Source: Porpolomopsis calyptriformis
Lineage: Eukaryota > Basidiomycota > Agaricomycetes > Agaricales > Hygrophoraceae
Direction: 5' to 3'
DNA: 64,000 bases
Assembly (NCBI GenBank): GCA_951640195.1
Contig: OX621167.1
Span: forward strand, 682,001 to 746,000
In this document: piece after piece, positions 9,266 to 57,913 of the stretch
How positions within the stretch are numbered: position 1 is the stretch's first letter
Layout: each line of letters starts with the position of its first letter
Notes under the pieces: model-generated
Seen by the model: the letters and a program-made list of their open reading frames with translations, nothing else
Database searches by the model: none
What the model was told of the DNA's origin: nothing
Position numbers and translations under genes: made by a program

Positions 9266-9857
<592 letters not shown>

Positions 9858-37040: not shown

Positions 37041-37499
37041 AAAACCCTGTTCTTTCAGTTCCTTGATGAGCTGAGCTTTCCTCTCTTTCGGCTAGCGATC
37101 GATCCCACAGTTGTCCACCACTCGGATAGCTTCTTCCATAGTAGTTGGGGAAACCACCTCGTCGACTCGTTCCGTCTCGACACCTTGTATGCTTCGTCCT
37201 CGACCTCGCCCTGTGTTTGGTCTTCCTCCTCGCCATCCGGCAGGGGCACTACTCAGTGGGCGCGCTGACGAACAAGAGGCGAAAGAGGTATTTGGACACT
37301 TGTTCACCCAATGACCTGGTTCTCCACAGTGATAGTAGTTGCCTCTCAGAACATGCGATATTGATGAAGAGGAAGTTGTCTCCTGTTTGATAGGAGCAGA
37401 GGAGGGAGTTTGGGTCGTCATTTGAGCCATGGTTTCCCTGGGAGTGTAGTAGTTACTCCGGGGAGCGGCACGATGCTCAAGTGCGAGTTCAAGACATTG
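37035..37499 (-). pseudogene. gag: gypsy A2 gag, C-terminal part
   Basis: Minus strand: LELALEHRAAPRSNYYTPRE, zinc knuckle with one altered position (NYYHCGEPGHWVNKC) and the Arg/Gly-rich tail. Cut at 37499 by gypsy B; continues at 44176. Confidence 0.8.
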
Positions 37500-37867
37500 T
37501 GTCACGGACATCTTTTTTCTTTTTATCTTAGTCATACTTGATTAGTCTCTATTCCGTCTATCCTTCCGTTTTACCATTCTATACATAGAGACTGATCACA
37601 TGTACCTTCCTTCCGACTCTTCACGAGTCACATTCCGTTTCCGACATTCTTCTCGTGACTCTTCACCAGTCACATTCCGGATTCCGCTTTGTAATCGTAC
37701 ATACGACTGACTCATGGCGACTCAGGTAGTTAGTATATAAAGCCTGATTTCTAGTCAGTAGGTTAAGTTCGATTCCTAGTTAGCTCCCCACTCTTTAGTC
37801 GAATTCCATTTCCTCATCAGCCCCTCCAACGCGAGAAGTAAAACCCTTCGACTACCGAATCATAACA
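37500..37867 (+). repeat. 5' LTR of gypsy B
   Basis: 368 bp, TGTCACGGACATC ... ATCATAACA. TGACTCA at 37708-37714 and TATATAAAG at about 37733; predicted RNA start about 37765. Confidence 0.95.
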
Positions 37868-37879
37868 AGAATCGAACTT
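37868..37879 (+). promoter_or_regulatory. Primer-binding site of gypsy B, self-priming type
   Basis: GAATCGAACTT at 37869-37879 is the exact reverse complement of AAGTTCGATTC at 37765-37775 in the LTR. Relative to family A two adjacent bases changed in both partners, preserving pairing. Confidence 0.75.
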
Positions 37880-38042
37880 CCTTCTTGCGCATCAAACCAC
37901 TTCCACTCTGGATCCTGCCGAAGACTTAACAAGGTCAATCTTCTCATCTGCAGATTCAGATACTCCCTTTCAACCAATAGTATTCCAAACCCCCGCACAA
38001 TCCATCATCCCCCTTTCCCTCTCATCATCATCACTGACATCA

Positions 38043-39464
38043 ATGTCTCAACAAGAGTACGAAGCCGATCAATCCGTTCCCGCACCAGGACCCAGTAACA
38101 TCCCCCCTACCATTCAAGAAGAAGAAGAAGACGTCGTCCCATTTAACATGGAACAAGAGCTCAGAGACTTAAGAGCACAAATCGACCAGTTCCGCGGTTG
38201 GTACTACAACGAAGTCGACGTCAATGATGAGCTCCGAAAGGAACTGAAAGCTCTCAAAGAAAGTTGACACGAAGAATCTGAACCAACCACCCCTCCCCCA
38301 CGACGACGCTCTGTACTTCGAGGACCTGGACTTTCTCCCTCGAATCCTTTCGTTTACCCCACAAGAAGAACCCAATCCGCCCAACTTGCACCCCAACCAA
38401 CCTTTCCCACTCAACTACCCACCCAGACGACTGCTCCCCCCACACTTCCAGCCCCCACCAAAATCAAAATCGCCGATCCAACCGAGTATGATGGAACCTC
38501 CGAGAAGCTTGAAGACTTCATTCATCAATGTCGACTCAACTTTGTGGTCAAAGACTACAACGATAAACAGAAGATCGTCTATATGCTCTCCTACCTCGGT
38601 GACGGCAATCCACGGGCCTGGGGACGACTGTTCACAGAAGGAGTTGACAGGACGAGGAATTTCGTATGGGACTACGCAACATTTTTGGACGATTTTAGGG
38701 AAGCTTTCGGAAGGATCAACCCCGCGGCGAAGGCGCGGATCGAGCTAGAGAAAGTGAAGATGACAGGAACGATAGAAGACTACAACCTTCGGTTCATGCA
38801 ACACGCAGCAAGAACTGAGTACAACGAGACCGCTCTACTTCGGTTTTACAAAGCCGGACTCCCCCAGCCGATCCGAACGCGGATCTACTCGATGGACAAT
38901 ATGCCGTCGACTTTGCTGGACTGGACGACGAAAGCGGCCCAGTTCGAAGAACAGTACCAGGAACAACGAGCCGAACAAGCATTGTGGTCAAGTCGAGATC
39001 AAAAAGGAAAGAAGTCTGAAACCAAATCGAGTCCACGAGGAAACCCTTCCCGCTCCACCACCACCACCACTTCATCCCCGATCAAACAAGAATCGAGAGA
39101 AGCCTCTCTCAAGACAGCGAAACGAGACAACTCCTCCATCACTTGCTACAATTGTGGCAAAAAGGGACATTATGCCAACGAATGTCGAAGCCCACGTGCT
39201 GAAGACGTTCCGGCACGTCAAGAATCCTCAAACTCTACTCGAGGAAAAGGAGGAAATCGCGGTCGAGGCAAAGGACGGAATGTCCGAACGATCAATCGGG
39301 TCGATACAGAAGAATCGGAAGCGCGGATAGAGGAAGTACCAGAGGACGACGAAAAGGAAAAAAGGATGGCAAAAGACGACTTGAAGGATATGGGAATCGC
39401 GAATTGGAACAAGGAGAGACGGGCTGCGCTAGCTCGAGCGTTAAAGGAGCAAAAGGATTTTTAA
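38043..39464 (+). pseudogene. gag: gypsy B gag, one in-frame TGA
   Basis: Starts MSQQEYEADQSVPAPGPSN; coil MEQELRDLRAQIDQFRGWYY; TGA at 38265-38267 after LKALKES; then the frame continues HEESEPTTPPP through the capsid-like region (IADPTEYDGTSEKLEDFIHQ, RFYKAGLPQPIRTRIYSM) to a zinc knuckle CYNCGKKGHYANEC and a Lys/Arg/Glu-rich tail ending KEQKDF at TAA 39462-39464. With otherwise intact coding regions, the single TGA suggests one recent C-to-T change at a CGA codon, or tolerance by readthrough; the first is more likely. Confidence 0.88.
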
Positions 39465-42400
39465 TCCGGCCAAGTGCTAAAAGCCCGAGCACTTTGGCTG
39501 TGTCCCATGTATGTGTACCACCATCTATGAAAAGTTTTCGTTTTCTTGGCACACTTGAACAGGGCAAAGGCGCTCTCGAATTCTATCTTTGGATCACGAG
39601 TGCCAACAATCTTCGACGAGTGGCTATCATAGCACTCATTGACTCTGGCGCCTCAGGGAATTTTATTGACGAAGCATTCGTTCGTCAAATGGAGATATCG
39701 ACCTATCCGTTGGATGAGGTTGTACCGGTACGAAACGCTGATGGTTCCGAGAACCGAGGAGGTCCCATCACGCACGATACAGACCTGTTTATCGAGGCAC
39801 CAGATTTATCCTTTCGAGAACGAATCCGGTTGGAGGTCACCAACTTAGGAAAAAAGCAACAGGTCATCCTCGGCTTCCCATGGCTCTTGCGACACAACCC
39901 CACCATCAATTGGACAAAAGGCACCTTAACCTTTGCGTCTGGTGACACGCTGTTCAGTAGTATGCGAGTCGGAGTGTTGCCCCCACAGGAAGAACTCTAC
40001 GTCTTCGATTCGAGTCTGAAACATGACTCCTTTATCCGTTTGGTCGGAGTTGACCACTCCCGACCAGTTTCCATCGAGGAGGATATCAAATCCTTTATTC
40101 CCAGTCGTTATCACAATTTCTGGCGTGTTTTTCATACCGCAGAATTCGACAAGCTTCCCCCTCGACGTCCCTTTGATCATGCGATCAACCTCTACCCGAA
40201 CACCAAGTTTCAAGTCGGAAAACTCTACCACCTTTCCCCCTACGAACAGGTAGAACTTAATAAGTTTATTGACGAAAATCTCAGAACAGGTCGGATACGT
40301 CCATCGAAATCACCACAAGCTGCCCCCTTCTTCTTTGCGAAAAAGGCTGAAGAGATCAATGCTAAAGGTCTCAGTGCTGGTCTACGTCCCATCCAGGACT
40401 ATCGCTACATCAACTCAAAAACCATTCCTGATCGTTACCCCCTTCCCCTTCTATCGGAAATCCTCCAAGTACCGAAGCTTGCTACTGCTTCACTCTTTAC
40501 AGTTATCGATATTCGATGGGGATTTAACAACATACGACTCAAGGAAGGTGACGAATGGAAAGCAGCTTTCATCACCAATCGAGGACTCTTCGAGCCGACC
40601 GTTATGTTCTTTGGACTACGGAACTCCCCAGCATCTTTCCAACGAATGATAGACGTTCTCTTTAAAACCGTTCTGGACTCTGGCTGTGTCCACATTTATA
40701 TTGACGACATTCTCATCATGGGCGACACCCCCGAAGAAATCCGCCACTGGACTGACGAAACCCTTAAACTCATGGAGAAGAATCAACTATCCGCCAAACC
40801 CGTCAAATGCCAAATGGAGAAGACCTCTGTTACATATCTTGGTACAATCATCAGTAAAGGTCAACTCGCTATCAATCCAAAAAAGGTAGACGCCATCATC
40901 AATTGGCCGACGCCCCAAAAGCTGCGAGACCTCCAATCCTTCCTTGGCACCACCAACTTCTGGCGTCGATACATCAAAAGTTTCTCCTCAGTCGTTCGTC
41001 CCCTCTGTGGCCTTTTGCGGAAAGACCAACCTTGGGATTGGTCTCCCTTGTGTCAAAAAGCCTTTGAGCAACTCAAACATCTCGTCACTACAGCCCCTGT
41101 CCTTCTTACCCCGCGGCCAGACCTTCCTTACCTCTTGGAGACTGATGCCTCAAATTTCGGTATTGGCGCAGTCTTATCTCAGAAACACGACAACGGTTGG
41201 CACCCCGTTGGCTTTTTCTCAAAATCTCTACTCCCTGCCGAGTACAACTATCCTACCCATGATCTGGAGATGCTTGCAATCATCACTTCCCTCAAATATT
41301 GGCGTTATCTTTTAGAGGGCGCAAGGGATACTGTGTTGATAAAGACGGACAATTTAGCGCTCAAGTATTTCATGCAGAACAGATCCCTCTCCAGACGACA
41401 AGCACGTTGGATGGAATTCTTAGGTAGATTCGACTTCAAGATCGAGTATTCCCCTGGAGTCAAAAACAAAGCCGATGGACTCTCCCGCCGACCCGACCAC
41501 CGTCGTACAGAAAAAGAAGAATTAGAAGGCCAAGCCCTCCTCCCCCCCGAACGTTTCATCAATGCTATCATTTCCATGTCCGAACCTTCCTTTATGTCAA
41601 AACTTCGCTTCCCCGACTTCAACGAAATCCCAGAGGACATTCGCATCAAATTATCCGATCCCTCTTCCGGCTACTCCTTCACTGACGGAATTGTGAGAGA
41701 TGCAGGAGATCGTATTGTCGTGCCAGCAGACGTATTGCTACGCACAGAGATAATTCGATTGACCCACTCCCTGCCCCATGGAGGCCATCCCGGAATCGAG
41801 AAGACACGTGAGCTTGTGTTGCGGAACTACACCTGGAGTAGTGCTGCCCCTGACATCCGTGTATTCGTATCATCCTGTCCGACCTGTCAACAAGTCAAGC
41901 TCTATCCTTCGAAGCCTGCAGGTCTCCTGGAACCTATTCCCCCTTCGTCTCGACCTTGGGAAGAAATCACCGCCGATCTAATCGTGGAACTCCCCCAATC
42001 ATCTGGCTACGATGCTGTCTTAGTCGTTGTCGACCGCTTTACCAAGCGCGCTCACTTTATTCCGACGACATCAAATATTTCTGCAGAAGGAGTCACAAAA
42101 CTCTTCAGGGACAATGTATGGAAACACCACGGCTGGCCAAAAAAGATCATAACCGATCGAGGAACTCAGTTCGCTTCCAAATTTGCGAAAGCTCTCAACA
42201 CTCATTTGGGAATCATCTCCGGTCTATCCACCGCTTATCATCCCCAAACTGATGGTCAAACGGAACGAACCAATCAAGAACTTGAACAATACCTTCATTT
42301 ATATGTAAACTTCATGCAAGATGATTGGTCCAACTGGCTATCCCCAGCTGAATTCGCTTACAATAACCGACAACACTCCTCGACGAAACACACTCCCTTT

Positions 42401-43024
42401 TACCTTGATACTGGCCAACATCCCTTTGTCCCATCTGTCCCTGCGGCCCCTACTTCCAACCCCGCAGCAGATACCTTCCACGATCATCTCACAGAAGCCC
42501 GTGAAGAAGCCACAAAAGCTCTAAAAACAGCGGCCGAAACCATGAAACGCTTCGCAGATCGTAAACGGAAAGATACCCAACTCCAAATAGGTCAATTTGT
42601 TTATCTTGATACTCGTAACTTAAAAACAGGTCGTCCAACCCTCAAACTTGATGTCCGACGCACTGGACCGTTCAAAGTTCTAGAAAGAATCGGAAAAGTC
42701 TCTTATCGCCTGGCCCTCCCCTTATCATGGAAAATACACGACGTCTTTCATGTTTCACTCCTGAGACCCGCTAACATTAACTCCGATCTCCACCCAGAGG
42801 AAGTAGATGATAATCTCCGTCCACCTCCGGATGTCATCCAAGAGAAAGAAGAATATGAGGTCGAACGAATTCTCCAACATCACGGGTCCACCCGACGTCG
42901 TACGTATTTGGTCAAATGGGTCGGCTATCCCATTGAAGAAGCAACCTGGGAACCGAAGAAGAACCTCCTCCATGCGAAAGAACGAATTCTAGAATACGAA
43001 CAATCAATTCAAACGGCGACTTGA
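39404..43024 (+). CDS. pol: gypsy B pol: protease, RT, RNase H, integrase, chromodomain (intact)
   Basis: 1206-codon open frame, -1 relative to gag; translated portion begins near 39460 after the frameshift. Protease AIIALIDSGASGNFIDE. RT FTVIDIRWGFNNIRLKEG, FFGLRNSPASFQRMI, VHIYIDDILIMG. RNase H LLETDASNFGIGAVLSQ, THDLEMLAI. Integrase zinc domain HSLPHGGHPGIE...CPTCQQVK; catalytic core ADLIVELPQS...VVVDRFTKRAHF, TDRGTQFASKF, YHPQTDGQTERTNQELEQ. The C-terminal chromodomain EEYEVERILQHHG...YLVKWVGYPIEEATWEPKKNL keeps Y, W and Y at the HP1 aromatic-cage positions, predicting binding of methylated H3K9 and targeting of insertion to heterochromatin, as in fungal and plant chromoviruses. Confidence 0.96.
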   Translation: MEQGETGCASSSVKGAKGFLIRPSAKSPSTLAVSHVCVPPSMKSFRFLGTLEQGKGALEFYLWITSANNLRRVAIIALIDSGASGNFIDEAFVRQMEISTYPLDEVVPVRNADGSENRGGPITHDTDLFIEAPDLSFRERIRLEVTNLGKKQQVILGFPWLLRHNPTINWTKGTLTFASGDTLFSSMRVGVLPPQEELYVFDSSLKHDSFIRLVGVDHSRPVSIEEDIKSFIPSRYHNFWRVFHTAEFDKLPPRRPFDHAINLYPNTKFQVGKLYHLSPYEQVELNKFIDENLRTGRIRPSKSPQAAPFFFAKKAEEINAKGLSAGLRPIQDYRYINSKTIPDRYPLPLLSEILQVPKLATASLFTVIDIRWGFNNIRLKEGDEWKAAFITNRGLFEPTVMFFGLRNSPASFQRMIDVLFKTVLDSGCVHIYIDDILIMGDTPEEIRHWTDETLKLMEKNQLSAKPVKCQMEKTSVTYLGTIISKGQLAINPKKVDAIINWPTPQKLRDLQSFLGTTNFWRRYIKSFSSVVRPLCGLLRKDQPWDWSPLCQKAFEQLKHLVTTAPVLLTPRPDLPYLLETDASNFGIGAVLSQKHDNGWHPVGFFSKSLLPAEYNYPTHDLEMLAIITSLKYWRYLLEGARDTVLIKTDNLALKYFMQNRSLSRRQARWMEFLGRFDFKIEYSPGVKNKADGLSRRPDHRRTEKEELEGQALLPPERFINAIISMSEPSFMSKLRFPDFNEIPEDIRIKLSDPSSGYSFTDGIVRDAGDRIVVPADVLLRTEIIRLTHSLPHGGHPGIEKTRELVLRNYTWSSAAPDIRVFVSSCPTCQQVKLYPSKPAGLLEPIPPSSRPWEEITADLIVELPQSSGYDAVLVVVDRFTKRAHFIPTTSNISAEGVTKLFRDNVWKHHGWPKKIITDRGTQFASKFAKALNTHLGIISGLSTAYHPQTDGQTERTNQELEQYLHLYVNFMQDDWSNWLSPAEFAYNNRQHSSTKHTPFYLDTGQHPFVPSVPAAPTSNPAADTFHDHLTEAREEATKALKTAAETMKRFADRKRKDTQLQIGQFVYLDTRNLKTGRPTLKLDVRRTGPFKVLERIGKVSYRLALPLSWKIHDVFHVSLLRPANINSDLHPEEVDDNLRPPPDVIQEKEEYEVERILQHHGSTRRRTYLVKWVGYPIEEATWEPKKNLLHAKERILEYEQSIQTAT
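39455..39464 (+). promoter_or_regulatory. Programmed -1 frameshift site, B gag/pol
   Basis: Gag ends AAG GAT TTT TAA. A five-T run abuts the stop codon; slipping back one base on T-TTT enters the pol frame (GFLIRPSAK). Pol is open in the -1 frame from upstream of this point. Confidence 0.6.
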
Positions 43025-43148
43025 TCACTCCTTCACGGTATCAACTCCCCTCGTTTATGTTTTCACTTTTGTCACCTTTTCCAAACTCCGACTCTTCCTT
43101 ATAATCTCTTTCGTCTCCGTCTTTCATTCTCAAGAAATCGATCTCGCT

Positions 43149-43727
43149 ATGCCCGCCGAACGCTCACATCAAACTGCCCGCAAATCTACTGGTGGTCGTC
43201 CACCCCGAACTCCTCACATGTCCACTGGAGGGCAACCCCCTCGTCGCGCCCCCCCTCCGCTCGCTTCCACCTCCTCCGCCTACGGTGAAGCCGAGCTCGC
43301 CGGACAACTCTGGCAGCACAACCGCCGCGCACGAAATCGAGACCTTCCCATATGGCCAAAGGAAATCGTCGCTCCACCTATCCCGCCCAAGCAGATCATT
43401 GAGTCGCTGCAGAAAGATATCGATTATTACAAGAACGAGATCGCAAGACTAAACGAAGAATTGTACAACCAAGGAATGAGTTTGGATGGAAAGAGAAGAG
43501 CGAGTGAGTACTGGCGGGAGCAGGCCAAATACTGGGAGACGAAGTACGAGGAAGTCACGAAGGTACTTCCCCATCTTGATTCTCCAGTTCCCCCTGTTTT
43601 CCCGGGTCCACTCACCGTCCCCCCCGGTTCGTCGTCGAACCCCATCACAATCCCCGATGACGACGATATTTCCCCGGTCGACATTATTTCCCTGTCGACC
43701 ATCGCCTCCAACAAGGACTCAACCTAG
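43149..43727 (+). CDS. gypsy B accessory protein with histone H3 tail mimic (192 aa)
   Basis: Intact frame between the chromodomain-integrase and the 3' LTR. N-terminus [20 protein letters not shown]: the nine residues QTARKSTGG equal histone H3 5-13, including the ARKS motif around K9, and R-P-P-R follows where H3 has K-A-P-R. A second STGGQPPRR lies at about residues 26-34. Then a Pro/Ser-rich linker, QLWQHNRRARNRD, a predicted coiled coil IIESLQKDIDYYKNEIARLN, the block EYWREQAKYWETKYEE, and a Pro/Ser/Asp-rich tail. No known domain recognised. A diverged copy at 50621-51202 conserves the mimic. Possible roles (inference): decoy or recruiter for H3K9 methyltransferases, HP1-type readers, or the element's own chromodomain. 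Confidence 0.9.
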   Translation: MPAERSHQTARKSTGGRPPRTPHMSTGGQPPRRAPPPLASTSSAYGEAELAGQLWQHNRRARNRDLPIWPKEIVAPPIPPKQIIESLQKDIDYYKNEIARLNEELYNQGMSLDGKRRASEYWREQAKYWETKYEEVTKVLPHLDSPVPPVFPGPLTVPPGSSSNPITIPDDDDISPVDIISLSTIASNKDST

Positions 43728-43771
43728 TCCTTTCCCTCCTCCACACCCATCGACACTTTCGAAGCCGCCTC

Positions 43772-43790
43772 GAATTTCGGGACGAAATTC
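43772..43790 (+). repeat. Hairpin before B 3' LTR
   Basis: GAATTTCG-GGA-CGAAATTC, perfect 8-bp stem, 17 nt before the 3' LTR, corresponding to 23189-23207 in A1. The GGACGAAATT core also recalls the box before the polypurine tract in plant chromoviruses (from memory). Confidence 0.75.
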
Positions 43791-43807
43791 CTTTTAGTGT
43801 GGGTGTA

Positions 43808-44175
43808 TGTCACGGACATCTTTTTTCTTTTTATCTTAGTCATACTTGATTAGTCTCTATTCCGTCTATCCTTCCGTTTTACCATTCTATACATAGAGAC
43901 TGATCACATGTACCTTCCTTCCGACTCTTCACGAGTCACATTCCGTTTCCGACATTCTTCTCGTGACTCTTCACCAGTCACATTCCGGATTCCGCTTTGT
44001 AATCGTACATACGACTGACTCATGGCGACTCAGGTAGTTAGTATATAAAGCCTGATTTCTAGTCAGTAGGTTAAGTTCGATTCCTAGTTAGCTCCCCACT
44101 CTTTAGTCGAATTCCATTTCCTCATCAGCCCCTCCAACGCGAGAAGTAAAACCCTTCGACTACCGAATCATAACA
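43808..44175 (+). repeat. 3' LTR of gypsy B
   Basis: 368-bp copy of 37500-37867, no differences seen by eye. Confidence 0.95.
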
Positions 44176-44180
44176 CATTG

Positions 44181-47013: not shown

Positions 47014-48046
47014 TATCAGGTGAAATATAAATACTTCACTTCTAGAACTACTGGAGTTGTACGTTAATCAAGTAAGTCCTAGTTGTTCGGGGGAGATGTG
47101 AATTGATTGAGTAATGGACACTTCCTCCTTTGATGGGGCTTAAGTAATCCTTGGCTAGGATGTACAGATGAGCAGGCTATCCAAACCTAATGGATAGTAT
47201 TGACTGGGAGAGCAAGAATGAAGTCAACGGCTGACTTAGAAGAATACGTATCACAGTGAGGTCTCTCTCCAATAAGGACTGAGACTTAGAGAATGTGATG
47301 AATAAGCAGGGGCTGAAGTAAGATAAGATAGTCCTCGGTGGCTATCTTCAACTTACAGAAATACGTCAAGGGGTGATTCCTAAGTTGGTTCTTAACGTAA
47401 GAAGGCTTAGGCGAAATCACACAGGGTATAAGCTTAATAGACTAGACTAGATTGGATGTATTGACTACAGACAAGTAGTATCAATAAGAGGTAGTACTAG
47501 GTACTGAGTACTAGGGGTGAGTTCAAGGGAAAGGGGAGAGTGGGGGAGGGGGGGGATAAAGTGGGGTAAAAGTGAACTGGAAGTGAACTTAACTCCTCAC
47601 TGGTGAAAAGGGGGCCCTTTATATATGTTTGAGAACAATGGGCAGTGAGAACAATAGGAAATAAGAACAATGGATAAAAGAACAATGAGGAGTTTGAATT
47701 GTGACTCACTATGAGTCAGACAATGAGGAGAACAATGGAGGAGATTAATATGAGTCATAGTGACTCAGAGAACAATGGAGTGATGACAGAACAATAGAAA
47801 AATGGGATATGAGTCATTCTGACTCAGAGAATAATGGGGAAGAATGCTATTGTCCATGATAAGATAGCATAAGTAAAGATAGTGGTGTATCTTATCTGAG
47901 ATAAGATAATGTGTGAGGGACAGTGATATCTTATCTAAGATAAGATAAGATAAGATAAGATAAAGGATATTTGAGCTATGGATGCTACTTGCTGAATGCA
48001 TGATCTTTGGTTAAGTTTGATACCAAATCAGTTTGGGATCATGACA
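47014..48046 (-). repeat. 3' LTR of element C
   Basis: 1033 bp. Plus-strand reading TATCAGGTG ... GATCATGACA. Contains six TGASTCA motifs (47702-47826), a GATAA tandem run near 47937-47963, repeated GAACAAT words and a TATA box on the minus strand near 47620. Confidence 0.9.
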
Positions 48047-48122
48047 TCTGCAGGGGACAAAGAAATCACAACTGTCCTCAGTTGATTCTTGTATATACAA
48101 TGTCTATCAACCTAGTAATCCT

Positions 48123-48773
48123 TTATACAGATGAGGTCTCATATTCGGTACAGCAAGGGAAGAACCTTCCCAACCATCCATTCCAGGGTTCCTTCTTTTC
48201 CATCCTAGCATCTTTCCGATCCACCACAAGCAAAATATCAATGTCTTCTCGCTCCAAACGTGCCTCCAACACCCAATACGATTTTGCGACGATCCAGACG
48301 CTAGTAATTATTGCTCGTCCTTGTCTTTGGACTTGGTTGCTTGGGTAGCGGAATTGAACAAGGGATCCCAGTTGAATAGGACCACCTTGAATACGGCTAA
48401 GACGGAAAACGAATCCATCCCAGTTGAGGGACTGAAAACCGCTTTGAAGTCGTTGAGCGGTGGCAAGTATAGTGGGGGTAGAGGTATTTTGAGGCGGGGG
48501 ATATGAGTGGTCTGGGAGGATTAGGCCAGTTCTTGGCCCAGGGATATATATGGGGGGTGGCTGTTCGATTTCGACCGAGGCGCGAAAAAGCCGAGATTCA
48601 CGAAGGAGGGTACGCGTGGATGAGTTGGCGGTGTCCTCATAGTTAGATTCAGGGATAGATGCGAGGGAAGTGGATGATTGCATTGTGACAAAAAGGGTAA
48701 AGGCTGAGGGCAGTGTTGGATAGCGGTGAGTGCGATATCGTGGCTTTGTGAACTGAACCCGGTTTATAGGCAC
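48123..48773 (-). CDS. Element C accessory frame 2 (216 aa), unknown
   Basis: Open frame just before the 3' LTR in element sense, with MPINRVQFTKPRYRTHRYPT, a Pro-rich middle (PPPIYIPGPRTGLILPDHSY) and a folded-looking C-terminal block LNWDGFVFRLSRIQGGPIQL, QVQRQGRAIITSVWIVAKSY, LEREDIDILLVVDRKDAR. No family recognised. A methionine at about residue 31 (MQSSTSLASIP) is an alternative start. Confidence 0.5.
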   Translation of the reverse strand: MPINRVQFTKPRYRTHRYPTLPSAFTLFVTMQSSTSLASIPESNYEDTANSSTRTLLRESRLFRASVEIEQPPPIYIPGPRTGLILPDHSYPPPQNTSTPTILATAQRLQSGFQSLNWDGFVFRLSRIQGGPIQLGSLVQFRYPSNQVQRQGRAIITSVWIVAKSYWVLEARLEREDIDILLVVDRKDARMEKKEPWNGWLGRFFPCCTEYETSSV

Positions 48774-48986
48774 GTGACTAGCCTGAGCTGAAATCTTAGT
48801 CGATCTTTTAATGATTCTGTCGCTTGTAGAGGGTTTACATATTTAATTATTTACCCAATGTCTCTCCTATTTACAGGGATTACTCCTAATAAGAGATTCT
48901 TTCTGTGACATTGTGGTAAAAAAGAGTAAAAAGGACTATACAAAAATAAAACAAAGAATTGGTGGCGCGTGTATGAGGAAGGACTA

Positions 48987-49508
48987 CTACTCCCTATCTA
49001 AGGGTTCTTCCTCCATGGGGCCATTGGCACCAATGAGAGATGAAGGAGGGATAATGACATTGGGGGGAAGGGGGGGAATAGATGGGATGAACGCGCTTTG
49101 CCCATATGCTGTTACATACCTAGACTCCCAGTATGTAGCTTGATCCATCCAATACTCAATCATTTCCGCCCTTGAACGTAGTGCTAGCTCCTGCCCTACA
49201 AGTTTGCCATTGAGCTCAAAGAGCTCGCTCTCAAGCTTCCGAAGGTACACGTCTTGCTGATGTCGATCCCTAAGTAGGGTCGCGATGATTTCGTCCTTTG
49301 ACGGATTAGCTGGTGCCTCATCCATTGCAGGCATGAGGGTATAAAGGGGTTGGTGGGGGTTATGGCAATCGTAGGCAGTGAGAGGTGGGGGCAGCAGTAC
49401 GTGTGTCGTAGGTGGGGGGAGGTTGCTGGACGTGGCTTGGTTGTTTGGGTTTGCCTGGTCCCAGTTGAACCATTGGCGTTGTGCTTCAGCGGAATAGGGT
49501 GTCGACAT
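48987..49508 (-). CDS. Element C accessory frame 1, coiled-coil protein (173 aa)
   Basis: MSTPYSAEAQRQWFNWDQAN, Pro-rich linker, then DEIIATLLRDRHQQDVYLRK, LESELFELNGKLVGQEL and EMIEYWMDQATYWESRYV, followed by a Pro-rich tail. The EYW-x2-QA-x-YWE-x-[KR]Y block matches EYWREQAKYWETKY of the gypsy B accessory protein, so the two are homologous over the coil. The histone-like N-terminus is absent here. Confidence 0.65.
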   Translation of the reverse strand: MSTPYSAEAQRQWFNWDQANPNNQATSSNLPPPTTHVLLPPPLTAYDCHNPHQPLYTLMPAMDEAPANPSKDEIIATLLRDRHQQDVYLRKLESELFELNGKLVGQELALRSRAEMIEYWMDQATYWESRYVTAYGQSAFIPSIPPLPPNVIIPPSSLIGANGPMEEEPLDRE

Positions 49509-49718
49509 GATGAGCGGTTTGATTTCGAGTGGAGGGGAGGGACTTTGCAGCAGGAGGTAGCTTGTCGTCGTCTAGATCGAAGGAAAGTAATAAGCGAGTG
49601 TGGGGGCATGCAGTTTACATCAGGTGGCTAGATCTGATCGACGATTAAGTCTTGATTAGGAAGTCTCATTACTTAAACTTCCCATTTCAATATCAGTGTC
49701 CAGATCGCTGGGTTCTGA

Positions 49719-50495
49719 TCAATGATCGGAGTCCTCGGGAGCTGTTTGCCCATCAGCAATCTCATCATCATGGGATAATCTATATAGGGTAGGGCTATCT
49801 CGATAGACGTAGGGGAGTAAGCGGAATGCAGCATAACGTTCCGCATGTTCGGCTCCATCCAGTTCCTGGAGGATGTAGGCTCCTCTTGTCGTTCTCTTGG
49901 CTACCTTATATGGGCCAAGGTACCTTGGTTCTGTCTTGAGCCTTCCTAAGGTAGATTCTAATCGGCTATTTCTGACAAGGACTAGTTCTCCTGGTCTATA
50001 ATATCTTCTGATGAGACGCTTCCTGAAACGGTGTTCAAACTGTTGCTTAGACTTGAAACGAGCTTTCTTTAGAGTTTCAGCAGCTTTGTCAATATCTTCT
50101 TGACGTCGTTCTAGCTGTCTAATCCTCAGGGCAAGGAGATCAGAGGTTGATAATCCTGATTGGAAACCCTCAACCATGAAGGTAGCTTCTGCAAGATCAA
50201 AGGGTAATAAGGGATGCATTCCATGAAGGAGATAATATGGGGAATATCCTGTAACACTACTGACTGTAACTCGGTCAGCAAAGGCTGCTATCTCCACCTG
50301 TTTGTGCCAGTTTCTGATCCTTCCAAATTTATCTTTGTCACTTGACTTGACAATAGCCTCTCGTAACGTGAAGTGACCATGTTCCACAACTCCATTAGCA
50401 TGCTTGTTATATGGGGAGATCCAAACTTGGGGTATATTCAGTCTCTGTATATACATTGGTAAAGTAGAAGGGTAAACGGATAAGAGACTAATCAT
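49719..50495 (-). pseudogene. Element C integrase, C-terminal half fused to gypsy-B LTR sequence
   Basis: From about 50440 downwards it reads PQVWISPYNKHANGVVEHGH, REAIVKSSDKDKFGRIRNWH, SVTGYSPYYLLHGMHPLLPF and RRYYRPGELVLVRNSRLES, typical of the C-terminal part of a gypsy integrase. The first 18 codons derive from a gypsy-B-type LTR read in frame. The catalytic D,D residues are missing; only the last part including the glutamate-region EHGHFTLREA is present. Confidence 0.75.
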
Positions 50496-51640
50496 GTCTG
50501 ACTAAAAAGAAAAAGAAAAATACATCCATGACATACACCCACACTAAAAGGAAATTTATCCTGAAATTCGAGATGGCATTTGAGAGAGTTGATAGGTGCA
50601 GAAGAGGGGAAGGACTAGGATTAGTCCTTGTTGGGAATAGTTGTTGACAGGGAAGTAATGTCAACTGGGGAAAGAAAGTCGTCATCGGGGATGGTGATGG
50701 GGTTCGACGATGAACCAGTAGGGACAATGAGTGGACCGGGGAAAATGGGTGGAGCAGGAGAATTGAGATGGGGAAGTACCTTTGCAACTTCCTTGTGTTT
50801 CGCCTCCCAATATTTGGCTTGTTCTCTCCAGTGTCGGCTCACTCTTCTCTCTTGGTCTAACTCTGACCACTGATTATACAACTCCTCATTCAACCTTACG
50901 ATCTCGGCCTTGTGATAGTCAACATCTTTCTTTAATGACTCGATGATTTGCTCGGGAGGGATAGGTGGTGCATTGATTTCTTCAGGCCAAACGGAGAGGG
51001 CCCGGTTTCGCGCGCGGCGGTTATGCTGCCAGAGTTGTCCGACAAGCTCGGCTTCACTGTAGGCTGATGAGGTGGAAGCCAGTGGTGGGGGAGCGTAATG
51101 AAGGGGCTGTCGTTCAGTGGACATGTGAGAAGTTCGTGGTGGGCGACCACCAGTGGACTTGCGAGCAGTTTGGGAGTGGTGTTGGATACGTTCTGCAGGC
51201 ATAGCAAATGGTTGATATTGAGGAGTAGAATGGAGATGGTGGCGATTATAAAGACTAGTCGGAGTTGGAAAAGGGGTGATAAAAGCGAAAAATGTAAACG
51301 AGGGGAGCTGATACCATGAAAGAGTGATTAAATTGCTGTTTGAATTAATTGTTTATATTCTAGAATTTGTTCTTTCATGTGAAGGAGGTTCTTCTTCAGT
51401 TCCCAGCTTGCTTCTTCGATGGGATAGCTGACCCATTTGACCAAATACATATAATGTTGAGTAAACCTGTGGTGCTGAAGAATTTGTTTGACCTTATATT
51501 CTTCTTTCTCTTGGAGGTGGGTGGAGATTATCATCCACTTCTTCTGGATGGAGATCAGTGTTAATATTAGTGGGTCTTAGGAGTGAAACATAAAAGGCAT
51601 CATGGATTTTCCAGGAGATAGGGAGGGCTAAGCATAAAGG
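50440..51640 (-). repeat. Gypsy-B-like fragment embedded in element C
   Basis: In element sense: integrase tail (LALPISWKIHDAFYVSLLRP), chromodomain remnant (EEYKVKQILQHHRFTQHYMY, LVKWVSYPIEEASWELKKNL), the intact accessory gene, a degraded hairpin, then about 95 bp of LTR beginning TGTCATGGATG. Both edges are abrupt with no target duplication seen, consistent with template switching during reverse transcription. Confidence 0.75.
50621..51202 (-). CDS. Second copy of the H3-mimic accessory protein (193 aa), inside element C
   Basis: Intact frame [20 protein letters not shown]..., homologous over its whole length to 43149-43727: shared QLWQHNRRARNR, APPIPPEQIIESLKKDVDYH, RLNEELYNQ, HWREQAKYWEAKHKEVAKVL, SSNPITIPDDD. 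The block [13 protein letters not shown] is unchanged although five of its codons differ at the third base. The second STGGQPPRR motif of the other copy is lost (STERQPLHY). The chromodomain next to it is damaged, so the accessory gene has outlived its neighbours. Confidence 0.88.
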   Translation of the reverse strand: MPAERIQHHSQTARKSTGGRPPRTSHMSTERQPLHYAPPPLASTSSAYSEAELVGQLWQHNRRARNRALSVWPEEINAPPIPPEQIIESLKKDVDYHKAEIVRLNEELYNQWSELDQERRVSRHWREQAKYWEAKHKEVAKVLPHLNSPAPPIFPGPLIVPTGSSSNPITIPDDDFLSPVDITSLSTTIPNKD

Positions 51641-51707
51641 TGGGTATCTTAGTGCAGGGGACAAAGTAAGTGGATTTTGCATATGGGAGAGGGAGTTAGC
51701 TGTAGGT

Positions 51708-54700
51708 TTAATCCTGAGGATAAACCTGAAGGTCTCTGGTGTTAAAGTAAGAACCAAAGTACCCTTCATTAAACAGATCTGAGATGAGGGAGGGGTTACG
51801 AAATTCCATGTTAAGAACTGCATTGATTGCATCAGCAAGAAGTAGTCTGTTTGCTGCTTGAAATACAGCAGCTGAATACAGAAAAAACTCTGCTTCCTCT
51901 TCTGAGAGCAATGGGTTACACCCAGCTCTCTCCTGCTCAACAGGAAAAACAAATGGACTAGGATGAGGGCACCAAGGCATCTGGTATGGGGTGCATGAGT
52001 CTTCTTTCCTCCAATGAGGGAACAGTTGGCTGTGGTATAGAAAGTAATGGTGGGCTGGGTTACTGACTGGCATGGTATGGACATAAGTCTTCCAGGCAGG
52101 GGTGTTGAGGATAGTGGCAGTATGCCCAATACATGTATGAAGGGCCTTGTGGATTCCAGCCAAGAAGGCTAGGTGGACCTTGGCACTGTCAATGAAATGG
52201 TCAGGCCCAATGAGGGACTGCATAGTGGGGTGTGTGGGTAAAGGCAAGCCTTCCCCCTTGGCTGTGATATTCAGGATGTAGATGGGCTCTGCTGAGCTGA
52301 GTACAGGCTCTGCCTGCAACTGGTTGAGCAGGTTCTGCTCTGGATAGTGGGTTGACTGAAGGGAAGTAAGGGTATTGGGGGTGTCTCTGAAGATCATAGG
52401 TTTCATAAGGGGGGGAGGACAGATATCAGTCTCTTGATTGTGACTTAGATCAGACATGTAAAGAGAAGATAATGTATTGGAGGGGTATACAAAAGATACA
52501 TCATCTTCCGAGGAAATATCAGAATCAGAGGAAGCATCTGATTCCGTGCGGACATCCCAATGGTGCCCGGCACCATTTACATACTCGTGATATCTATCAT
52601 ACGACGTATTTACGAAGGGGTCCCCGCGCTCGCGCAGGGACACACTGCTGTCGTACATTACGTCAGTGGGTGAGTACGGGGTATATGGGGGGGAATCGAG
52701 GGAAGGGCGCGACGGGCGGTAAACGCCGTCGTCGTCGGACACGGAAGTGGGCGGTGACGGGAGGAACAAGGGGGTGCGACGAGCGGTCGGGCGCTCGTCG
52801 CATGTGTCGATGGGGGGGGGTGGGGAATAGCGAAGTGCGGGGGCTGGTGGGCAGTCATATGCGCCGTGGTCCCACTCCGGGAAAGACTGAGCGCGGGGGC
52901 GCACGTAGGTGCGCCCATACGAATGAACTAACGACGTCGGGGTGTCGTTAGCGGGGTATCGGGTGGGGACGTGGACGGTTGTGGTTGCGGGGGCTGGGCC
53001 GACCGCGTTGAACGGGGAAGTTGGCGGTGGGGGCGGGGGCGACGCTGAGTCGCGGGTCCGGGCCCGCTGTGCGTCGAGTGACGACTGGGCGTCACTGAGG
53101 GGGCGTCGGAGCGGGAGAGGGTGACGAACAGGCGGGGGGGGTCGTGTGGACGTAGCGAGTAAAACCATGGGCGGGGGCGACGGGGGCACGCGCGGCTCCT
53201 GACCGTCGACCGGGTAATCGCCCCACCCGCGCTCTACCTCCATGGGCGATGACATCTCCGTGTTGGCGTCATCGCCCTCGTAGTCGTGGTCGACGGACGA
53301 GGGGGCCGGGACGTAGCGACTGGACCCGGGTGGGTCCGTTCGCGGGTCGCGAGTGGGGGGATGGAAAGCGTCGACGCACCGCGTCACTGGAGGTACGTCA
53401 GTTTCCATTTGATTTACTTCTTCCGGGTACTCACAAATTACTTCCGGGCCACTTCTCCAGGCTGGAGATGGCTTGGTGGGGACGCGAGAGCCTCCAGCAC
53501 CTGGGGAAGGAGGGGGCGCGGCTGGGGCTACTTCCCCGACTGCCAACGCGTTGGGGTAAAACTTGAAGTACAGTTGCCCCACCCTCACAGAGGGGGGGGC
53601 GTAGGGATTGTCGGAAGTGATGGCCGCGAGAGTAGCGTTGAGGAGGATCCCGTGTTCGAACGGGATCCCACGCTCGTCCAATTGTGGAGGGAACCGTTGG
53701 GCGTAAGGGGACACGACCATGAAGGTAGCGGAGGGAGCCGTGGGGTGGACTATCCGCTCAGCGATGGCTCGCGTCATCAGACTGAACATATCGGGGCCCT
53801 CATGAGGGAGGGGTCCCCAGTCGACGTGCACCGGGAGCGGGAGAATGTTGGGGGAAAAGGGGGGCGGTAAAAAAGGGGTCACATGGACGTAGGGAGCGCT
53901 TTGGGACGTAGTCTGGGCATGAGGCATCGTTTTTAGCGGTAACGATTGCCTCTTTGGAATAAATTTTGGACTTATATGCTTATTGGGAACAATGGTGGCG
54001 TCTTTAAAAATAGAATTCCCATTGTTAGTAACTAATTCAGTCAGATATGCGCTAAAAAACAATAAACCTCCATCTCGGAGTCCGTTTTTCGGAGGATTTG
54101 TAATACTCATAATAGGATATATCACGTCTGAGCTCGAATTCTTATTGTTCTCTGTCGGTCCCGAGGTTACGGTCGGTACCGACGCTTTTGGAAGTAAGTT
54201 CGAGCGGAGCTTAGAACTCGCAGGCCCATCGACGGCTGGGCTTGAACTACTTCCAGTGGCCGTATTGGTAAGTGCAGCACATACTGCTACCTCAGGCCTA
54301 ACAAGTGGGCTTGGATTAATGTGGTACCCTAAGGAGGGAACCTGAGGGGCTACAAATATCTCATATTTGGCCTCTGGATTCTTTGGGTGCTTGAACAAGA
54401 GGTAAGTTCCCTCTGTTCTTTCATCAATGGTAACTAGATTATCACGTAGCCATGGGCGTCCAAGTAATAAATCAAAGGGGACTGACTCCCCAATAAAGAG
54501 ATTGGCATAGGTAGTAATACCTCCACAGGTTAATGGGACATTAGATACCAATCCAGCAAGGGTTCCTACACCTCCATTAGCATCATTCATAACTAACGTC
54601 TTAGTTAGGTCCCTCGGTCTCTGAAGGATTAATTTCCATGCATCCTTACTAACCACATTCAATTGGGAACCTGTGTCAATGATAGCAGATACAGGGCGCT

Positions 54701-56768
54701 TATCACATTCAACCTGGAGCTTGATCAGTTCCTCTCTGTCTCTAGTGAGAAAGGAAGTAGCTAAAACAGCAGTCTTCACATTCTTCCTTTTGATCATTTC
54801 TGAGAGTTTATCAGATATTTCCTTGGATGATCCCAGGACTTCTCTGACTTTCAGGGTAACTGATGTATTAAGAATCTGATTAACTACCTGGTTGTTACCA
54901 ATTGTAGAGGATATTTCTGATTGACGTACTGGAGATTTAGTAGAGACTTGGGGTGCTAATTCTGTGGTATCTTGGGGTAGGGGTGCAGTCTGTTTAGCTC
55001 TGGATTTTCTAGTTATATCCTTCATGTCAATATCTTTATTAATTTCTGTGGGAGGAATTCGTTTAACTCTAGCATCAACAGGTGTAGGCAGTGCCTTAAT
55101 AAAGTCTTTGTTGTGATGAGGCTTCAGTACCTCATCTGGGAGATGAGTTTGGAATCGTAAGGGGGCAGCTTTAGGTGTAGTGCTTGGGAATGGGTGAGAA
55201 CCTTGGGTAGCAGCTGTGCTTTCTTTCCCTTTAGTTCTGGACTTCATAGGGGGATAGACTCCATCAAATACTTCCTTCCTAGCTGTAGTAATCTTGTGAG
55301 GGACTCTGTCTGCTACCATGACTTGTACATCCTCATCCTGGACTTCTGGCTCATACTCAGTGGCTGGGATTACATATACACCTGAATCATCTTTGTCAAA
55401 CTCAGGTTCTGACAGGTAGTAATCTGAGCAATCACTTTGCAGAGTAAGGAAATGAGTCTGGATGGGTTTAGTCTTGTCTTGAGTGAGTCTTGCTACAGCT
55501 TGGATAAAGGTCTCTTCAGGGAGTCGACGAATAAAAGCACCATTCTTGAATACTAGCTTCCTATTTGCATCACGTATAAGTGTGCCTGAAGCAATGAGTT
55601 CATCAATCTTGGGACAACTAGACATTCCATGTCCTTTACTTCCACAACCATAACAGGTGATTGTGTCTCCAGTACTCCTAGGACTAGTATTGGATATAGG
55701 GAATGTGTTTGAAGAGGGAAGCATAGAAGATCTTGGTGAAGATACTCGAAGAGTAGGTGGTTTGATACACCTAGCAATATCAGGATCAAGTTTGAGGGCT
55801 TTATAGTAGGCAAGTCCATAGCGTAAATCATCTAGGGAGAGTTTTCCCATCTCTTTGACAAGAGATTCTACTTCATCTTGGACTGGAGTAGTAGACTTGC
55901 TAGATGCCTTCTTACCCTTGTGATCTTCTTTCTTCTGACTGGTCTTCTTCAAGGGTTTCTTGAGATCTTCATCATCAGAATCCCATCTGCTCTTATGGGA
56001 CTTCTTACCATTATTCTTCTTCTTCCTTCTAGGTCTCCTTTCGACTTCACTTTCTTCGTCAGATGATGAAGAGTTATCACTAGATGTGTCTGACTCTGTT
56101 TCATCATCCCTTCCAGGAATATCTGAGTCAGAGTCAGCTAGGTTGATATCAAACCGATTACGTTCAAATAACACTTCAGCTACTTTGATTACTTTCTTCA
56201 TAGGGAATGGGGAAGTAACATCCAGAGGGGTGGTTCCAGAAGCATTAATAAGTCTGGCTTCAATCACCTGTCTGAGAGTCTTGTTAATTCCATTCCAGAA
56301 ATAAGCAGCTTGTTCGTCTTCTGAGATTCTCTGCTTGGCTTGTAGCCATCCTGCAATAGTGATGAATCTTCTTTCATACTTCTTCCAACGTGTTAATGAA
56401 TGGATTTGCCTAGTCTTCCACTTACGAGTGAAAGAGAGGAGGTCTTTGACAATGTATCGAGTTTCCTTTAAGGCAGCATCATAGTACCTATTGAGATCAG
56501 CTTCCAGCTTGGGCCAATCATTGGTCCTATAGCTTTCAAGGGCTTCAATTAACTGGACTACTTTACTAGAACAGTAGTCAATGAGGTGTTCACCCTTCTC
56601 CACATCAGGTACATTGTAAACTTTACATAACTGATTAAAGTGTCTGAGGAAGCGCTTGATCTGTTCATGGCTTCCACTGAACTTAGATGGAGCAGACTTC
56701 TGTCCCAGAAGGGGCATCATGTCTGGGGTGCGTGTAAACTGAGATTGGACTTGAGACTGTCCAGACAT
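51708..56768 (-). CDS. gag: Element C gag-protease with long Pro-rich extension (1686 aa)
   Basis: Starts MSGQSQVQSQFTRTPDMMPL. Capsid-like region about residues 25-215 (KFSGSHEQIKRFLRHFNQLC, YFWNGINKTLRQVIEARLI). Acidic then Lys-rich low complexity (about 215-300). Zinc knuckle CYGCGSKGHGMSSC. Aspartic protease VSAIIDTGSQLNVVSKDAW with PFDLLLGRPWL. Then about 450 residues rich in Pro, Ser and Arg, encoded by unusually GC-rich DNA (52640-53560), and a compact C-terminal block (HFIDSAKVHLAFLAGIHKAL, SEEEAEFFLYSAAVFQAANR, LFNEGYFGSYFNTRDLQVYP). The frame stops before any RT. Confidence 0.88.
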   Translation of the reverse strand: MSGQSQVQSQFTRTPDMMPLLGQKSAPSKFSGSHEQIKRFLRHFNQLCKVYNVPDVEKGEHLIDYCSSKVVQLIEALESYRTNDWPKLEADLNRYYDAALKETRYIVKDLLSFTRKWKTRQIHSLTRWKKYERRFITIAGWLQAKQRISEDEQAAYFWNGINKTLRQVIEARLINASGTTPLDVTSPFPMKKVIKVAEVLFERNRFDINLADSDSDIPGRDDETESDTSSDNSSSSDEESEVERRPRRKKKNNGKKSHKSRWDSDDEDLKKPLKKTSQKKEDHKGKKASSKSTTPVQDEVESLVKEMGKLSLDDLRYGLAYYKALKLDPDIARCIKPPTLRVSSPRSSMLPSSNTFPISNTSPRSTGDTITCYGCGSKGHGMSSCPKIDELIASGTLIRDANRKLVFKNGAFIRRLPEETFIQAVARLTQDKTKPIQTHFLTLQSDCSDYYLSEPEFDKDDSGVYVIPATEYEPEVQDEDVQVMVADRVPHKITTARKEVFDGVYPPMKSRTKGKESTAATQGSHPFPSTTPKAAPLRFQTHLPDEVLKPHHNKDFIKALPTPVDARVKRIPPTEINKDIDMKDITRKSRAKQTAPLPQDTTELAPQVSTKSPVRQSEISSTIGNNQVVNQILNTSVTLKVREVLGSSKEISDKLSEMIKRKNVKTAVLATSFLTRDREELIKLQVECDKRPVSAIIDTGSQLNVVSKDAWKLILQRPRDLTKTLVMNDANGGVGTLAGLVSNVPLTCGGITTYANLFIGESVPFDLLLGRPWLRDNLVTIDERTEGTYLLFKHPKNPEAKYEIFVAPQVPSLGYHINPSPLVRPEVAVCAALTNTATGSSSSPAVDGPASSKLRSNLLPKASVPTVTSGPTENNKNSSSDVIYPIMSITNPPKNGLRDGGLLFFSAYLTELVTNNGNSIFKDATIVPNKHISPKFIPKRQSLPLKTMPHAQTTSQSAPYVHVTPFLPPPFSPNILPLPVHVDWGPLPHEGPDMFSLMTRAIAERIVHPTAPSATFMVVSPYAQRFPPQLDERGIPFEHGILLNATLAAITSDNPYAPPSVRVGQLYFKFYPNALAVGEVAPAAPPPSPGAGGSRVPTKPSPAWRSGPEVICEYPEEVNQMETDVPPVTRCVDAFHPPTRDPRTDPPGSSRYVPAPSSVDHDYEGDDANTEMSSPMEVERGWGDYPVDGQEPRVPPSPPPMVLLATSTRPPPPVRHPLPLRRPLSDAQSSLDAQRARTRDSASPPPPPPTSPFNAVGPAPATTTVHVPTRYPANDTPTSLVHSYGRTYVRPRAQSFPEWDHGAYDCPPAPALRYSPPPPIDTCDERPTARRTPLFLPSPPTSVSDDDGVYRPSRPSLDSPPYTPYSPTDVMYDSSVSLRERGDPFVNTSYDRYHEYVNGAGHHWDVRTESDASSDSDISSEDDVSFVYPSNTLSSLYMSDLSHNQETDICPPPLMKPMIFRDTPNTLTSLQSTHYPEQNLLNQLQAEPVLSSAEPIYILNITAKGEGLPLPTHPTMQSLIGPDHFIDSAKVHLAFLAGIHKALHTCIGHTATILNTPAWKTYVHTMPVSNPAHHYFLYHSQLFPHWRKEDSCTPYQMPWCPHPSPFVFPVEQERAGCNPLLSEEEAEFFLYSAAVFQAANRLLLADAINAVLNMEFRNPSLISDLFNEGYFGSYFNTRDLQVYPQD

Positions 56769-56880
56769 AGTAAGTGTTGAATACTAAGTTGGGAGTTATA
56801 TTGATGAGTGGGGTCTGAATAAGTTGGGGAGTGAGATTACAATCAATCACAAGCATCCCCTCGCGGTGGGCTCCAAATTA

Positions 56881-57913
56881 TATCAGGTGAAATATAAATA
56901 CTTCACTTCTAGAACTACTGGAGTTGTACGTTAATCAAGTAAGTCCTAGTTGTTCGGGGGAGATGTGAATTGATTGAGTAATGGACACTTCCTCCTTTGA
57001 TGGGGCTTAAGTAATCCTTGGCTAGGATGTACAGATGAGCAGGCTATCCAAACCTAATGGATAGTATTGACTGGGAGAGCAAGAATGAAGTCAACGGCTG
57101 ACTTAGAAGAATACGTATCACAGTGAGGTCTCTCTCCAATAAGGACTGAGACTTAGAGAATGTGATGAATAAGCAGGGGCTGAAGTAAGATAAGATAGTC
57201 CTCGGTGGCTATCTTCAACTTACAGAAATACGTCAAGGGGTGATTCCTAAGTTGGTTCTTAACGTAAGAAGGCTTAGGCGAAATCACACAGGGTATAAGC
57301 TTAATAGACTAGACTAGATTGGATGTATTGACTACAGACAAGTAGTATCAATAAGAGGTAGTACTAGGTACTGAGTACTAGGGGTGAGTTCAAGGGAAAG
57401 GGGAGAGTGGGGGAGGGGGGGGATAAAGTGGGGTAAAAGTGAACTGGAAGTGAACTTAACTCCTCACTGGTGAAAAGGGGGCCCTTTATATATGTTTGAG
57501 AACAATGGGCAGTGAGAACAATAGGAAATAAGAACAATGGATAAAAGAACAATGAGGAGTTTGAATTGTGACTCACTATGAGTCAGACAATGAGGAGAAC
57601 AATGGAGGAGATTAATATGAGTCATAGTGACTCAGAGAACAATGGAGTGATGACAGAACAATAGAAAAATGGGATATGAGTCATTCTGACTCAGAGAATA
57701 ATGGGGAAGAATGCTATTGTCCATGATAAGATAGCATAAGTAAAGATAGTGGTGTATCTTATCTGAGATAAGATAATGTGTGAGGGACAGTGATATCTTA
57801 TCTAAGATAAGATAAGATAAGATAAGATAAAGGATATTTGAGCTATGGATGCTACTTGCTGAATGCATGATCTTTGGTTAAGTTTGATACCAAATCAGTT
57901 TGGGATCATGACA
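56881..57913 (-). repeat. 5' LTR of element C
   Basis: 1033 bp, no difference to 47014-48046 seen by eye. Three bases inside the element lies TTGGAGCCCACCGCGAGG (minus strand), a candidate tRNA-type primer site, unassigned. Confidence 0.9.

Follow-up and report, generated by a model that had tools for sequence, protein, structure and literature searches.

A chromovirus accessory protein in the fungus Porpolomopsis calyptriformis begins with a conserved mimic of the histone H3K9 tail

Methylation of H3K9, a mark that the integrases of certain chromoviruses read, is a main route of transposon silencing in fungi. In a stretch of 64,000 nucleotides from Porpolomopsis calyptriformis (assembly GCA_951640195.1, contig OX621167.1, positions 682,001 to 746,000), referred to here as the window, an LTR retrotransposon encodes an accessory protein that starts with the part of the histone H3 tail in which K9 lies. 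This raises the question of whether the resemblance is a chance match, a leftover of a captured histone gene, or a peptide that is maintained for a use within the H3K9-methyl system.

The element is a gypsy LTR element of the chromovirus type and spans positions 37500-44175 (+) of the window. This copy belongs to the group of copies designated family A. Its 5' LTR (37500-37867, +) and 3' LTR (43808-44175, +) are equal, with 0 mismatches over 368 bp, and the copy is flanked by the TSD CATTG (37495-37499 and 44176-44180). The gag ORF (38544-39464, +) contains a CCHC zinc knuckle (Pfam PF00098). The pol ORF (39404-43024, +) encodes 1206 aa, in which the Pfam domains of protease, RT, RNase H and integrase appear in order. 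A chromodomain with the cage aromatics Y, W and Y forms the integrase C-terminus (42854-43003, +; PF00385, 1.8e-13). The LTRs and TSD, the protease, RT, RNase H and integrase order and the C-terminal chromodomain of the group I type identify the element as a chromovirus (Ty3/gypsy). With chromoviruses such as MAGGY it shares Gag, the PR-RT-RH-IN order, the LTRs and a group I type chromodomain with three cage aromatics. Unlike these, the family A element has an additional ORF after the integrase, the product of which starts with an H3K9 tail mimic. This accessory ORF (43149-43727, +; 192 aa) is located between pol and the 3' LTR and starts 124 nt past the end of the pol ORF.

The translation of positions 43149-43210 (+) is exactly the N-terminal sequence of 20 residues reported in the first-pass annotation. 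The identity to H3 residues 5-13 that it described is also correct: QTARKSTGG is encoded at 43170-43196 (+), and Lys12 is the equivalent of K9. When the tail is compared to H3 peptides in the PDB, R2, Q5-G13, P16 and R17 are identical and K4 and K14 differ. Because K4 and K14 are replaced, the K9 equivalent is the sole lysine of the tail, and Lys12 is the only lysine within the first 70 residues of the protein. In the AlphaFold model, residues 1-42 are without secondary structure (mean pLDDT 53, low confidence). Helices are predicted at residues 43-64, 81-114 and 119-142, also with low confidence (mean pLDDT 53), and the C-terminus is acidic. The accessory proteins of family A and family B have no match in Pfam, histone fold included.

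The distribution of the motif in the genome bears on whether the match could be chance. In the 33.5 Mb genome, a degenerate DNA pattern that encodes QTARK[S]TGG is matched 70 times and its reversed control 0 times. Copies of the accessory protein, located independently of the motif, adjoin 67 of these matches; true H3 genes account for the remaining 3. Relaxed to ARK[S]TGG, the pattern likewise has 70 matches genome-wide (2 in the reversed control). Since both patterns have 70 matches, they mark identical places. In this genome-wide pattern search, ARKSTGG is encoded only in families A and B and in H3. For the shorter ARKSTG, 122 coding places were counted, against 0 for the reversed pattern. 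Among the 100 of these 122 places that were listed, 56 belong to family A or B, 41 to another family, family E, and 3 to H3, with none elsewhere. Two H3 genes with introns are found in the window, at 283-869 (-) and 9266-9857 (+), and a third H3 gene is at C2:3412913. The same window is therefore occupied by two H3 genes and by mimic-bearing elements.

The first-pass annotation proposed a search of the protein family for conservation of the N-terminal motif. The genome was searched blind to the motif, with residues 43-192 of the accessory protein as the only query. This search gave 126 matches, about 100 of which are strong copies. The 80 best of the 126 matches were aligned, and 59 of these 80 have an intact ORF. 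The N-terminal motif is kept in these relatives from the same genome and is close to invariant in the 80 best copies. The counts for the motif columns, out of 80, are Q 80, T 80, A 79, R 67, K 80, S 80, T 80, G 78 and G 78. The H3 residues Q5, T6, K9, S10 and T11 are thus kept in all 80 copies. Every one of the 13 losses of the arginine (R8) is a CpG transition; with the window copy as reference, CpG transitions occur at 1.4-1.8 times the non-CpG C/G rate. Synonymous codon variation is present at most motif positions among the same copies. In 20 further copies, most of them decayed, the N-terminal region is absent in 3. Of the remaining 17, 16 keep the lysine (one has Glu) and 16 the glutamine; S-T is intact in all 17, the alanine is present in 13 and the arginine in 7. 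The copy at C2:2687022 and the fragments at C4:397110-397713 were left out of the conservation counts.

In the comparison of families A and B, the motif has a pN of 0.000 (12 pairs) or 0.009 (54 pairs) and a pS of 0.27-0.29. For the whole accessory protein, pN is 0.131-0.136 and pS is about 0.54. The flanks of the motif have a pN of 0.26-0.28 in the preceding seven residues and of 0.18-0.19 in residues 17-32. Over the 54 A-B pairs, one other of 183 nine-codon windows equals the low pN of the motif. Within family A alone, 11 of the 183 nine-codon windows, the motif among them, reach an equally low pN. As one family B sequence was used, the pN/pS test amounts to little more than a single evolutionary comparison. 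These values point to selective conservation of the motif, in a test limited by few independent lineages. The first-pass annotation stated that the match would be chance if homologues lacked the motif or varied freely there while the coiled coil was conserved. No such free variation is present within families A and B, and this part of the expectation favours the motif. The other part holds to some extent, as two more distant relatives, families C and D, described below, are without the mimic. Chance was rejected on the pattern counts with their controls, the conservation among copies and the pN/pS test.

The motif could also be a captured first exon of H3 that is kept by inertia and not for a function. 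The nine codons are identical to the two H3 genes of the window at 24 of 27 and 22 of 27 nucleotides, and exon 1 of both genes ends, by eye, in the second Gly codon of STGG. However, the differences from H3 within the nine codons are synonymous, as are most differences among the copies, and the flanks diverge. The similarity also continues past the end of the exon (RPPR versus KAPR), and the tail is common to families A and E, whose proteins are otherwise dissimilar. Persistence by inertia is therefore highly improbable. A separate candidate, that the accessory ORF is itself a copy of an H3 gene, was discarded, as the protein has no histone fold and the differences in the motif are synonymous.

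With the integrase/chromodomain tail as query, other chromovirus families of 60-64% identity were found in the genome (150 of 823 candidates were scored). The accessory ORF of family E, at C5:406400-407250 in the one copy that was fully read, starts MPREVRYARKSTGRRPPRGNP, and the N-terminus in this single copy is MPREVRYARKSTGRRPPR. In BLASTP, the body of the family E protein has no significant similarity to the family A protein. From ARKST to RPPR, the DNA of the two families is identical at 28 of 33 positions, which suggests that the tails of families A and E share common descent. For the family E body, 126 genomic matches were found. Beyond the one copy, the family E tail is known from matches to a tolerant pattern, A-[R/C/H]-K-[S/L]-T-G-R, in which the lysine codon is built in. 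This pattern allows CpG-type changes at R and S and demands the lysine and T-G-R. It is found at 89 places (control 0), is exactly ARKSTG in 50 of the 89, and recovers all 41 of the listed family E ARKSTG places. Where family E body matches reach the start of the body, a place with the tolerant pattern is located upstream in 86 of 110 and in 24 of 110 there is none.

The window contains another chromovirus, family D, in which pol ends at 22280 and the accessory ORF (22451-23190, +) is without the mimic. The accessory protein of family D, of which eight copies were read (150 copies were scored of 267 candidates), begins with MPATRSTRSPSPQVAIRRSGRIPSS or a closely similar sequence, and none of these eight N-termini has the mimic. 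In the window copy, an in-frame TGA near the start (22451-22474, +) breaks the accessory ORF; intact copies are present elsewhere in the genome. The family D chromodomain (PF00385, 4.4e-16) has the identical three cage aromatics. Because family D has a chromodomain and an accessory protein in the same position but no mimic, a chromovirus of this host can do without one. Its presence in families A/B and E and in a chimeric element, together with its absence in family D, makes it a property of two chromovirus families and one chimera.

The chimera is an LTR element of 10.9 kb (47014-57913, -) with identical 1033-bp LTRs (47014-48046 and 56881-57913). It carries the family B accessory ORF (50621-51202, -; 193 aa), which is 77% identical to family A and has the mimic at 51146-51172. 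This ORF adjoins a decayed, frameshifted remnant of a chromodomain. The element has gag/protease and an integrase tail, and its long ORF is without an RT domain in Pfam. No Pfam chromodomain was found in its own integrase tail. The 10.9-kb element has taken up a chromovirus pol tail together with the mimic ORF. The same element encodes the family C coiled-coil protein (48987-49508, -; 173 aa), which is 32-33% identical to the family A protein (E about 3e-6) and is a distant coiled-coil paralogue of the mimic protein. The mimic is absent from the family C protein in the window copy and in the fetched matches that have an N-terminal region. The family C sample consists of the window copy and 7 of 18 weak matches, one of the 7 being without the N-terminal region. 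Family B and family C matches are paired in the same way at four further places in the genome. Five chimeric family B copies look recent because they are nearly identical across the N-terminal part compared.

A candidate reader of such a peptide is encoded next to it in the mimic-bearing chromovirus. The PDB structures closest to the integrase chromodomain are chromodomains that read H3K9me, and the matches include Oxpecker, CDYL, SUV39H1, HP1 and MPP8. A chromodomain was found in 79 of the 80 best copies, with the cage residues Y in 78, W in 76 and Y in 79 of these 79. The three losses of the cage W are stops. The model of the chromodomain has a pLDDT of 57, which, like that of the accessory protein, is too low to base a fold search on. 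The definition of the three-aromatic cage and of group I retroelement chromodomains follows the excerpted text of PMC3350952, according to which group I chromodomains, such as that of MAGGY, bind H3K9me2/3.

In the host genome there is one Pre-SET match, in a gene whose Pre-SET is rich in Cys and whose SET part contains NHSCDPNC. By these features the gene reads like a SUV39/Clr4-type enzyme. A search for the chromo-shadow domain of HP1 (PF01393) gave no match in the host and none in the control genomes either. Targeting to heterochromatin was also judged from the spread of 82 A/B copies along the chromosomes, and clear clustering is absent. The median neighbour distance is 117 kb, compared with a simulated mean of 147 kb, and 13.6% of simulations were as small. 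As the copies are not clearly clustered, no targeting effect is claimed.

The footprint of the H3K9 writer lies around ARKS and that of the reader is about QTARKS. On balance, the selectively maintained and presumably flexible H3K9 mimic at the N-terminus of the coiled-coil accessory protein probably serves the H3K9-methyl system as a docking peptide. The first-pass annotation had suggested that the element may attract, saturate or evade the heterochromatin machinery or tether its own integrase; the conserved mimic, its presence in a second family and the neighbouring chromodomain support this in part. The host SUV39/Clr4-type enzyme would methylate Lys12 of the tail. Chromodomains, either those of host HP1-type proteins or that of the element's own integrase, would then bind the methylated Lys12, and the coiled coil would render the tail multivalent. 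Silencing factors could be drawn off the copies of the element, integration complexes could be held on heterochromatin readers, or both. For this model we infer expression of the protein, flexibility of the tail, methylation, binding and a benefit to the element.

A different use of the same residues would be a nuclear localisation signal that is borrowed from H3 and recognised by karyopherins. According to the excerpted text of PMC5677370, Kap123 uses the H3 tail as an import signal, on which K14R has little effect; the mimic has Arg at this position. The same text names K14 and K23 as key residues, which does not agree with an import role. Basic residues also suffice for such a signal, but the exact Q-T-A and S-T-G-G are kept here. 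An import signal is thus quite unlikely. A docking peptide fits better because the writer and reader footprints are conserved and the other lysines in the first 17 residues of the tail are replaced.

If the tail is a docking peptide, its partner could be mainly the element's own integrase chromodomain. The coiled coil would then cap or bridge chromointegrases in the particle and release them once real H3K9me outcompetes the mimic. This would be congruent with the position of the mimic ORF, which in 79 of 80 copies comes after sequence that codes for a chromodomain, and with the extent of the conserved stretch, which covers the peptide stretch bound by chromodomains in HP1-H3 structures. It is also congruent with family C, where the homologous coiled-coil protein of a chromodomain-less element has no mimic. 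It is not congruent with family D, in which the chromodomain is present without a mimic. The chimeric family B retains the mimic beside a decayed chromodomain, which also counts against this partner, although the five copies look recent. The own integrase as the main ligand is, on this evidence, rather unlikely.

Outside this genome, when the single accessory sequence was compared to the protein database, nothing was found at E <= 1e-3. A search with the family alignment (E <= 1) returned three proteins only, with three, four and three tails; the match is confined to the motif and leaves out the body. As these matches reach the motif only, no true orthologue of the element protein was found in other species. 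A pattern scan of IMG/VR gave three contigs, and the translated matches resemble neither H3 nor the accessory protein. A profile from the three tail proteins matches 344 proteins at E <= 0.1, and many of the best 120 of these 344, which were listed, are true H3. Because the best 120 of the 344 were listed, more multi-tail proteins are possible. At least six named Agaricomycete proteins, from Daedalea quercina, three Armillaria species, Peniophora sp. and Heterobasidion irregulare, contain 3-4 copies of the H3 tail each. Examples are DAEQUDRAFT_482210 of Daedalea quercina, ARMOST_22343 of Armillaria ostoyae, PENSPDRAFT_749582 of Peniophora sp. CONT and HETIRDRAFT_318391 of Heterobasidion irregulare. 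The multi-tail Agaricomycete proteins are annotated as hypothetical or uncharacterised, and the taxonomy was confirmed for four multi-tail proteins.

In 38 tail copies from 11 of these proteins, counted with the ARK core required, K14 is kept in 4 (R in 22, H in 7), R2 in 35, K4 in 25, Q5 in 34 and T6 in 36. Besides the three tail proteins found with the alignment, eleven of the 120 listed proteins were read. A nematode record that repeats H3-like fragments (Pfam PAF) and two parts of true H3 were left out of the 11 compared. No Pfam domain was found at E <= 0.1 in the 11 compared proteins, and the multi-tail proteins are for this reason taken to be without a detected histone fold. In the three Armillaria homologues, the three QTARKSTGG cores are unchanged and the spacers are variable. 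The family A protein and the multi-tail Agaricomycete proteins have in common the H3-like tails, the loss of K14 in most cases and the lack of a detected histone fold. The multi-tail proteins, which were compared at the protein level, differ in that they contain three or four tails each and other spacer sequences and have no known link to a retrotransposon. The family A accessory protein contains a single full copy of the H3 tail, whereas three or more are typical of the multi-tail proteins. Downstream of the family A mimic, at 43218-43247 (+), comes a further, degenerate tail-like stretch, MSTGGQPPRR, in which STGG-x-PPR alone is kept. This stretch could perhaps be the remnant of a tandem tail that resembled the multi-tail proteins.

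The multi-tail proteins are most relevant to a reading in which the accessory protein acts on the host only. It would titrate or inhibit the H3K9 methyltransferase or HP1 in trans and so delay silencing, and the element's own integrase would not be involved. Unrelated Agaricomycete and other proteins bear 3-4 tails with no integrase attached, family E carries the same tail on a different body, and the host has a SUV39-type gene, all of which agree with a decoy. One tail per protein is, however, a weak titrant compared to nucleosomal H3, even if valency could be gained through the coiled coil, and the abundant family D lives without the mimic. A purely host-directed decoy is possible but not probable. 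For the docking peptide, the choice of partner among the own integrase, host HP1 and the methyltransferase is favoured in two directions. The neighbouring chromodomain points to the integrase; family D and the multi-tail proteins point to a target in the host.

H3K9 mimics in host proteins are short similarities around ARK inside large proteins. The mimic described here has an ARK-centred, H3K9-like motif in common with those of G9a, WIZ, LIG1 and ATF7IP (PMC6172828, PMC10611923). In the excerpted texts of these papers, the ARK mimics in host proteins are methylated by H3K9 enzymes and read by chromodomains, and that of ATF7IP is read by MPP8. The mimic of the element differs from these in having nine contiguous residues as well as R2, P16 and R17, in its N-terminal position and in being part of a mobile element, and it is known here from sequence alone. 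With the additional ORFs of plant and rotifer LTR retrotransposons, the accessory ORF has in common that it is an extra gene beside gag and pol (PMC5408684, PMC7264820, in excerpt). A histone mimic is unmentioned in the openings of the abstracts of these two papers. In the best-ranked open-access literature in PMC, no LTR retrotransposon with a histone-tail mimic or with such an ORF after the integrase was found. Both chromoviruses and mimicry of histones have been described before; as far as open-access searches reach, what is new is that the accessory protein of a chromovirus bears a conserved H3K9 tail.

More tentatively, fungal chromoviruses may carry both halves of the H3K9 code, the reader and the peptide. 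Methylation by the host would then assemble or steer the integration complex or sequester silencers, and mimicry of the H3 tail would be a recurrent weapon in the Agaricomycetes. A conserved copy, in a transposon, of the peptide on which the mark is placed would link silencing and the parasite directly at the molecular level. The presence of multi-tail proteins in several Agaricomycetes suggests that histone-tail mimicry is wider than one element.
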